From: a virus
DNA: 30,094 nt
Reading direction: 5' to 3' (one strand)
IMG/VR virus record: IMGVR_UViG_3300021957_000196
Location: 1-30,094 of that record
Part shown: positions 23,244 to 23,832 of the stretch, in pieces
How positions within the stretch are numbered: position 1 is the first letter of the stretch
How the letters are laid out: each line of letters starts with the position of its first letter
Made by a program: the position numbers and the translations under genes
Notes under the pieces: model-generated
What the model saw: only the letters and a program-made list of their open reading frames with translations
The model's database searches: none
Told to the model about the DNA's origin: nothing

Positions 23244-23270
23244 GGGGTTGAAATATAGTGTTTCAATCCC
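23244..23270. repeat. Inverted repeat overlapping the hsp20 promoter
   Basis: GGGGTTGAAA (23244-23253) and TTTCAATCCC (23261-23270) form 10-base arms with one mismatch and a 7-base centre. The left arm contains the -35 and the right arm ends at the -10, so a bound repressor would block the promoter. Confidence 0.55.
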
Positions 23271-23276
23271 TATATA
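23248..23276 (+). promoter_or_regulatory. Sigma-70-type promoter for hsp20
   Basis: TTGAAA (23248-23253), a 17-base spacer and TATATA (23271-23276). A perfect TATAAT lies 4 bases further on but with 21-base spacing. Predicted +1 is near 23283, leaving a leader of about 54 nt made of two hairpins. Confidence 0.6.
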
Positions 23277-23281
23277 TAATA

Positions 23282-23330
23282 GATGGATGCCATTAAGGGT
23301 CCATCGTTTAATCTTGCTTTATAAGGAGAT
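23282..23330 (+). promoter_or_regulatory. ROSE-like RNA thermometer in the hsp20 leader
   Basis: Two hairpins fill the leader. The first is GATGGA (23282-23287) with TCCATC (23300-23305). The second pairs ATCTTGCT (23311-23318) with AGGAGAT (23324-23330) around loop TTATA, leaving one bulged G. It hides the whole ribosome site AGGAG. TTGCT opposite AGGA is the signature of ROSE elements (UYGCU facing the Shine-Dalgarno, with a bulged G), which melt on heating and occur before small heat-shock genes in bacteria. The gene that follows is a small heat-shock gene. Thermal behaviour is inferred. Confidence 0.65.
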
Positions 23331-23336
23331 ACCAAA

Positions 23337-23786
23337 ATGGTTACAAGCAAAGCACTATCTATTTTCGATAATCTAAATCAACTCACACCCTATGCTGTAG
23401 GATTTGATCGGGTCTTCGATCAACTCAATACATACGCTCGCAATAATGCAACATCAACAGGGTTTCCGCCATATAACATCCGTAAAGGGGGTGACTATAC
23501 CTATGCCATCGAAATGGCCTTGGCGGGATTTAGTAAGGATGATATTGAAATTGAAGTAGCAGAAGGTTTACTTACGGTTCGTTCAGTTAAAGAGGACTCT
23601 GAAACGAATGAAGAATATGATTCCAAAATTTATCGTGGAATCTCATATCGTAAGTTCAATCGGAAATTCACTCTTGCAGATGACATTGTAGTGAACGATG
23701 CTTCCCTTGAAAATGGTATGCTTGAGATTACTCTTGAGCGTATTGTTCCAGATGCGAAGAAACCACGCAAAATTACAATCAAATAA
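23337..23786 (+). CDS. hsp20: Small heat-shock protein Hsp20 (IbpA-like)
   Basis: An ATP-independent holding chaperone that binds unfolding proteins. It has 149 residues. The alpha-crystallin domain covers about 45-140: YAIEMALAGFSKDDIEIEVA, then YRGISYRKFNRKFTLADDIV, then ASLENGMLEITLER. The C-terminal ITI tripeptide is the usual oligomerisation motif. It resembles the IbpA type. ATG 23337 lies 8 bases after AGGAG, which is buried in a ROSE-like hairpin. Hsp20 is frequent in marine T4-like phages and is thought to help virion protein folding. It is followed by an 11-bp inverted repeat that could end its transcript. Confidence 0.94.
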   Translation: MVTSKALSIFDNLNQLTPYAVGFDRVFDQLNTYARNNATSTGFPPYNIRKGGDYTYAIEMALAGFSKDDIEIEVAEGLLTVRSVKEDSETNEEYDSKIYRGISYRKFNRKFTLADDIVVNDASLENGMLEITLERIVPDAKKPRKITIK

Positions 23787-23800
23787 TTTTGAAATAATAG

Positions 23801-23832
23801 CGAAAGGGGTCTTGACTTTTAGACCCCTTTCG
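23801..23832. repeat. Perfect 11-bp inverted repeat with a -35 element in its loop
   Basis: CGAAAGGGGTC (23801-23811) and GACCCCTTTCG (23822-23832) enclose the 10-base loop TTGACTTTTA, which contains the -35 of the next promoter. As RNA it would be a stable hairpin, but only a weak U stretch follows, so a terminator role for hsp20 is uncertain. As DNA it is a good operator candidate. Confidence 0.7.

Follow-up and report, generated by a model that had tools for sequence, protein, structure and literature searches.

A conserved two-hairpin ROSE-like element, a candidate RNA thermometer, in the hsp20 leaders of marine phages

The ibpA leader of Pseudomonas is a proven two-hairpin ROSE-like thermometer with a U(U/C)GCU core, in which hairpin II alone senses the temperature while hairpin I stays closed, and in which single-nucleotide deletions yield a heat-stable hairpin II (PMC3669281). 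RNA thermometers have also been described in phages, namely in lambda cIII, in the fourU element of SPbeta blyA and in the sigma70 fourU elements of gut Caudoviricetes; they resemble the case presented below in that the structure of a phage leader sets the access to the ribosome-binding site by temperature, but they are neither ROSE-like nor located 5' of a chaperone gene, and cIII closes upon heating (PMC4166951, PMC10586365, PMC11182007). An earlier note on this DNA had known of no described phage example; this is incorrect for phage thermometers in general, but holds for those that are ROSE-like or precede a chaperone gene. Another structured leader, the manA motif (RF01745) from marine metagenomes and cyanophages, including T4-like ones, precedes ibpA chaperones among other genes (PMC2864571), and differs from our element in comprising 192 positions. 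In T4-like cyanophages hsp20 is a core gene (PMC3037559), for which our literature search found no mode of control. A full-text search of openly licensed papers returned no report of a ROSE-like element in any phage; judging by these papers, the thermometer proposed below would be without a ROSE-like precedent in phages.

The window (the whole stretch of 30,094 bases analysed here) belongs to a T4-like marine phage and contains a T4-like gene set: tail sheath, portal, major head protein, helicase, SbcCD-like proteins, CobS-like ATPase, gp45 clamp and gp44 clamp loader. Its hsp20 gene (23337..23786, on the plus strand like all features with coordinates below, unless stated otherwise) encodes an IbpA-type small heat-shock protein of 149 aa, in line with the earlier naming of the gene as Hsp20 (Pfam HSP20 3.6e-18; PHROG 432 Hsp20 1.2e-40; NCBIfam IbpA 8e-35, the latter under the equivalog cut-off). 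The 107-base gap between the end of the CobS-like gene (23229) and the start of hsp20 (23337) comprises, from 5' to 3', an inverted repeat, a TATATATA box, hairpin I and hairpin II. On the other side of hsp20, at 23801-23832, there is a 12-bp GC-rich inverted repeat with a terminator-like score on the minus strand only. We propose, with a probability of roughly 0.85, that a late-type phage promoter starts the hsp20 mRNA at hairpin I or a little upstream of it, and that the 5' UTR of this mRNA, formed by the two-hairpin ROSE-like element, opens on warming and raises the level of Hsp20. In the cold, the Shine-Dalgarno sequence AAGGAG would be held in hairpin II by CUUGCUU, with one G bulged out, and ribosomes would be blocked; on warming, the weak helix of this hairpin would loosen stepwise and translation of Hsp20 would go up. 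Hairpin I, which repeats the bulged-G module, would serve as a stable 5' cap that aids folding or mRNA stability.

Hairpin I (23282..23305) consists of a variable 6-bp stem (G23282-C23305 through A23287-U23300), the pair U23288.G23299, the bulged G23289, two C-G pairs (C23290-G23298 and C23291-G23297) and the loop AUUAA. In hairpin II (23311..23330) the arm AUCUU-G-CUU is paired with AAGGAGAU and the ribosome site is covered; the outer half is formed by A23311-U23330, U23312-A23329, C23313-G23328, U23314-A23327 and U23315.G23326, and the inner half, beyond the bulged G23316, by C23317-G23325, U23318-A23324 and U23319-A23323 with the loop UAU. The Shine-Dalgarno sequence AGGAG (23324..23328), recognized from the sequence, lies 8 nt 5' of the ATG. 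The earlier note had placed this sequestered site, the single bulged G and the second hairpin at 23282-23305 exactly to the base; it had missed the module Y-G-C / G-G, with its bulged G, that is common to both hairpins. The bulged G at position 23316, part of the ROSE-type core UUGCU/AGGA, recurs in all distinct arm pairs compared, for which YGC was part of the search pattern, and also in the leaders of relatives listed without that pattern. The minimum-energy fold computed from 23280 consists of the two hairpins, with modest statistics for a single leader (z -1.6; 14 of 200 shuffles as good), and with 20 more upstream bases a different structure becomes slightly better. Since the longer 5' sequence favours another fold, it takes comparison with relatives to support the two-hairpin structure. 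R1, a covariance model trained on related leaders from the window's clade only, recovers this leader as the sole significant site in the window (63.8 bits at E 3.5e-17, against 11.6 bits for the next best).

For this comparison 80 IMG/VR loci were gathered through the Hsp20 protein alone, with no selection for the motif. Every locus with enough upstream sequence has TCTTGCTT 5' of AAGGAG, and nearly all of the leaders so collected contain a GCC..GGG hairpin directly 5' of TCTTGCTT. In a few leaders (L064-L071, L078) an additional hairpin (TGACCA..TGGTCA) stands between hairpins I and II. Among 43 leaders with 29 distinct stems of hairpin I, the Y-G pair and its four outward neighbours are formed in all 29, by two to six pair types each; 193 of 232 cells are paired, compared with 53/203 or 66/203 when one arm is slid. 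On the alignment A4, 94.1% of hairpin I is paired versus 45-61% in the slid versions, with double changes at six pairs. The strict form of hairpin I occurs in 107 of 130 distinct leaders, compared with an average of 0.41 in shuffles, and in 1 of 29 negatives, i.e. chance coding matches to the core pattern.

Hairpin II is invariant on A4, partly because the rows were chosen by the hairpin II core. A further 160 loci were fetched with the Hsp20s of cyanophages and of HTVC103P-like phages, and their leaders, read directly, show GGUUGCC-UUCG-GGGACC with CUCGCUU..AAGGAG and also GUAAUGCCCAUUAGGGAUUAC with AUCGCUU..AAGGAU. The change from CUYGCUU/AAGGAG to AUCGCUU/AAGGAU swaps a C-G pair for A-U, and ACUUUGCUU/AAGGAGGU in HTVC008M, Mosig and L497 swaps U-A for C-G. 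Counted over 38 distinct arm pairs, 98 of 114 cells of the three outer pairs are paired versus 48-64 in the slid versions; only the outer pairs are informative here, since YGC and GG were set by the search pattern. Within the window's clade hairpin II hardly varies and its compensatory changes appear between clades, so the covariation of hairpin II rests on the between-clade comparison.

Both hairpins are found in three phage lineages, again in leaders collected only through the Hsp20 protein. By eye, 18 of 20 isolate loci carry the element, including S-PM2, syn9, P-SSM2, P-SSM4, P-HM1, S-RIM2, HTVC008M, HTVC103P, Melnitz, Mosig and the Pseudomonas jumbo phage Callisto; of the remaining two, Salicola phage SCTP-2 is ambiguous and Vibrio phage PWH3a-P1 lacks the element, which is therefore not universal. 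The covariance model of the window's clade detects 14 of the 20 isolate hsp20 leaders at E < 0.01. In P-HM1 the annotated GTG start of hsp20 (L334:244) is at the foot of hairpin I, and the true start is probably the ATG 3' of the Shine-Dalgarno sequence. The earlier note had named loss of the hairpin in related phages as a result that would speak against it; instead both hairpins are kept and hairpin I covaries. Judged by these sequence comparisons, the two-hairpin element is real and conserved in marine phages.

The element is also specific to hsp20. A strict two-hairpin test recovered it at 179 of 283 hsp20 starts, compared with 1 of 1410 other SD-preceded ORFs (lengths to roughly 500 aa) and with none of 5660 shuffled leaders; the resulting 63% for hsp20 is a lower bound, because of the strict pairing rules and of the alternative starts counted among the 283. 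Among the IMG/VR matches listed for the exact core pattern, 86 of 121 sites lie directly 5' of hsp20, four 5' of dnaK and one 5' of groES, and among those listed for bacterial and archaeal genomes none of 118 lies at hsp20 and one at dnaK. A genome search with RF02523, which missed the site in the window and matched chance places in all 14 controls, was left out of this distribution. On a 58.6-kb viral contig (L142), an alphaproteobacterial-type tmRNA in permuted form is found together with a groES-groEL-hsp20 cluster (L142:3178-3493, L142:10752-13254), with the thermometer core 5' of groES and the full element 5' of hsp20. On another viral contig (L132:5626-8079) the element precedes dnaK, which is followed by hsp20, and at L154 it also precedes dnaK. 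The sole non-chaperone case is a full element (L124:4182-4404) 5' of a 65-aa protein (MQANYINGLVDQ...) with no Pfam match.

With respect to the features of the ROSE-like motif, UUGCU (23314-23318) in the 3'-proximal hairpin faces AGGA (23324-23327) of the Shine-Dalgarno region, and UUGCU or UCGCU occurs in every phage lineage examined, in agreement with U(U/C)GCU. The bulged G opposite the ribosome site, G23316, is unpaired in folds of both the isolated hairpin and the whole leader and is conserved in relatives; the covarying hairpin I provides the upstream hairpin, of which such elements have at least one (two to four hairpins in all); and the gene at 23337 is hsp20. Among 4227 Rfam families the best for the window leader is ROSE_3, aligned over its full length (E 0.006), at 23.1 bits versus the cut-off of 43; Melnitz reaches 34.1 bits (E 7e-4) and C48C1 26.8. 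At the gathering threshold no family matched anywhere in the window, ROSE, ROSE_2 and ROSE_3 matched neither the window nor 15 related loci nor any phage leader tested. The cyanophage copies went undetected by ROSE_3. The Rfam ROSE/ROSE_2 search proposed earlier as a check was thus negative at cut-off, and the designation of the site as a ROSE-like thermometer stands on UUGCU/AGGA, the bulged G, the upstream hairpin and the small heat-shock gene, but not on Rfam membership. A fourU thermometer was rejected, as the Shine-Dalgarno sequence faces CUUGCUU, broken by the bulged G, rather than four consecutive U; RF01745 gave no match in the window, nor any at E<=1 in nine isolate loci.

The phage element shares with the Pseudomonas ibpA thermometers two hairpins, a stable hairpin I, U(U/C)GCU on the Shine-Dalgarno sequence in the 3' hairpin, a leader of about 60 nt and a small heat-shock gene (PMC3669281). 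It differs in being phage-borne, in its AU-rich, weak hairpin II, in a putative late-type promoter rather than a sigma-32 one, in its score below the Rfam cut-off and in its covarying bulged-G hairpin I. ROSE_3 (RF02523) has a similar hairpin I, GAUGCC..GGGUC with the same bulged G, as well as the ACUYGCU core and the position of the AUG.

The isolated hairpin II of the window folds as described above, with predicted energies of -7.65 kcal/mol (5 C), -5.95 (15 C), -4.23 (25 C) and -2.2 (37 C). Between 0 C and 45 C, its C-G pair within the leader is predicted to drop from 0.90 to 0.27, and the opening of AGGAG to go up no further than from 0.008 to 0.19. As a consistency check only, this predicted melting covers seawater temperatures and agrees with a graded thermometer; nearest-neighbour melting did not distinguish the window leader from other genes in the window, which are equally closed or temperature-dependent, and since these are predicted alike the melting curves are not counted as evidence. 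The energy model leaves out the non-canonical contacts at the bulged G, and for the relatives L325 and L328 it favours other folds. It is from the design of the element and the company it keeps that we infer an opening of the Shine-Dalgarno sequence with a rise of translation on warming, i.e. that melting would act as the switch and would yield more Hsp20 in warm infected cells. The gradual predicted melting would also suit a structure that merely damps translation or shields the 5' end of the mRNA and involves no switch, as would the position of hairpin I at the predicted 5' end, where a stabilising role has been proposed for Pseudomonas ibpA (PMC3669281); however, such a structure would have no need for the UYGCU/AGG core with its bulged G, which is kept across phage lineages and bacterial heat-shock genes, and we regard this explanation as very improbable.

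The bulged-G module of hairpin I, being conserved, resembles more than a plain stem, and this is one argument for a mainly autoregulatory leader, on which free Hsp20 would repress its own translation until misfolded protein titrates it, like E. coli IbpA; such a leader would sense the chaperone load, and temperature indirectly. All seven phage and alphaproteobacterial Hsp20s that we aligned with IbpA (its sequence entered by hand) possess an equivalent of Arg93, the residue on which the repression of the ibpA mRNA through its 5' UTR is reported to depend (PMC10474464). Nonetheless, the ROSE core that covers the Shine-Dalgarno sequence is conserved as well and accounts for direct sensing, with which a putative binding of Hsp20 to the leader could coexist. 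We therefore consider a mainly autoregulatory role improbable and retain direct opening of the leader on warming as the preferred explanation.

The late-promoter part of that explanation derives from the region directly upstream of hairpin I. The T4 late promoter is TATAAATA, and the window has a similar putative -10 box, TATATATA (23271..23278), assigned by the position of the motif in relatives. WAAATA or TATATA is present in 124 of 148 distinct stretches 5' of hairpin I, compared with 18.5% of shuffles, and ends 3-5 nt from the hairpin in 106 of the 124. As most T4-like leaders have a TATAAATA-like box at this distance, the element would seem to be the entire 5' UTR of a late transcript, with late-promoter use and a start at hairpin I suggested by sequence. 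The HTVC103P-like leaders have TTGACA and TATAAT in place of the late-type box. Farther upstream is the inverted repeat GGGTTGAAA..TTTCAATCCC (23245..23270), whose arms vary together in relatives (TTGTAA/TTACAA in L029, L040 and L075) and which could be a terminator, an operator or a promoter. Starting inside this repeat is a sigma-32-like string (23248-23275), TTGAAA (23248-23253) followed after N14 by CCCTATAT (23268-23275), and the bacterial copies of hsp20 have CTTGAAA upstream. The late-promoter-like box overlaps this string, so both promoter readings are possible; the claimed independence from host sigma-32 is not established, because of the string in the window and of CTTGAAA in the bacterial relatives.

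The alphaproteobacterial hsp20 and rpoH leaders (L509-L516, L532-L537) have the same two bulged-G hairpins, with AACUUGCUU or AAUCUUGCUU facing AAGGAG or a close variant; they differ in the sigma-32-type CTTGAAA upstream of several and in that rpoH is also a carrier. In 289 sampled alphaproteobacterial genomes (the class of a Thalassospira locus), 21 match the covariance model at E 0.01, and of the matches that could be placed, 11 are 5' of hsp20, two of rpoH and one of dnaK; in one genus the element is present in 7/7 genomes. Both rpoH products (L515, L516) score best against sigma-32 models, and as these two genes have the same two-hairpin bulged-G leader, the sigma-32 gene itself may be under a ROSE-like element. 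One further bacterial locus (L258) is from Woeseiaceae, which we take to be Gammaproteobacteria; 2 of 274 genomes of its class matched, both at hsp20. In the cyanobacterial phylum 1 of 146 genomes matched, with no hsp20 found at that site, although cyanophages do carry the element; such bacterial absences are weak evidence, because the model was trained on the window's clade. The occurrence of the same element in bacterial genomes also argues against a binding site for a phage translational repressor such as RegA, whose gene is just 5' of hsp20 in S-PM2, S-SSM7 and P-HM1 but is replaced by other genes in further carriers (a cobS-like gene in the window, a hypothetical one in P-SSM4); we find this extremely improbable.

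In the Hsp20 tree, bacteria appear in several places with phages beside them: L510, L512 and L514 join the large clade of the window (92/88), and L511 and L513 join HTVC008M and Mosig (94/96). The hsp20 gene seems to be passed between phages and alphaproteobacteria along with its leader, and such transfer is likely, short of proof because neither fork reaches the starred level. It is tempting to go further and to consider a mobile thermometer family shared by marine phages and some alphaproteobacteria, which would move with hsp20, groESL and dnaK, and in bacteria sit on rpoH; phages would have exchanged sigma-32 for late promoters, so that the chaperone supply tracks temperature at particle assembly, and the module of hairpin I may add a second input, e.g. 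the binding of Hsp20. We offer this wider scenario tentatively, as possible but rather unlikely in its entirety.

The proposal is immediately testable, because the element sits in model phages sequenced years ago. The element may represent a new RNA family, and it is probably an instance of a thermometer that has been transferred along with its gene between phages and hosts. If it is a working thermometer, abundant viruses of the ocean would tune a chaperone to the temperature of the water through translation, which would bear on the response of infection to warming.
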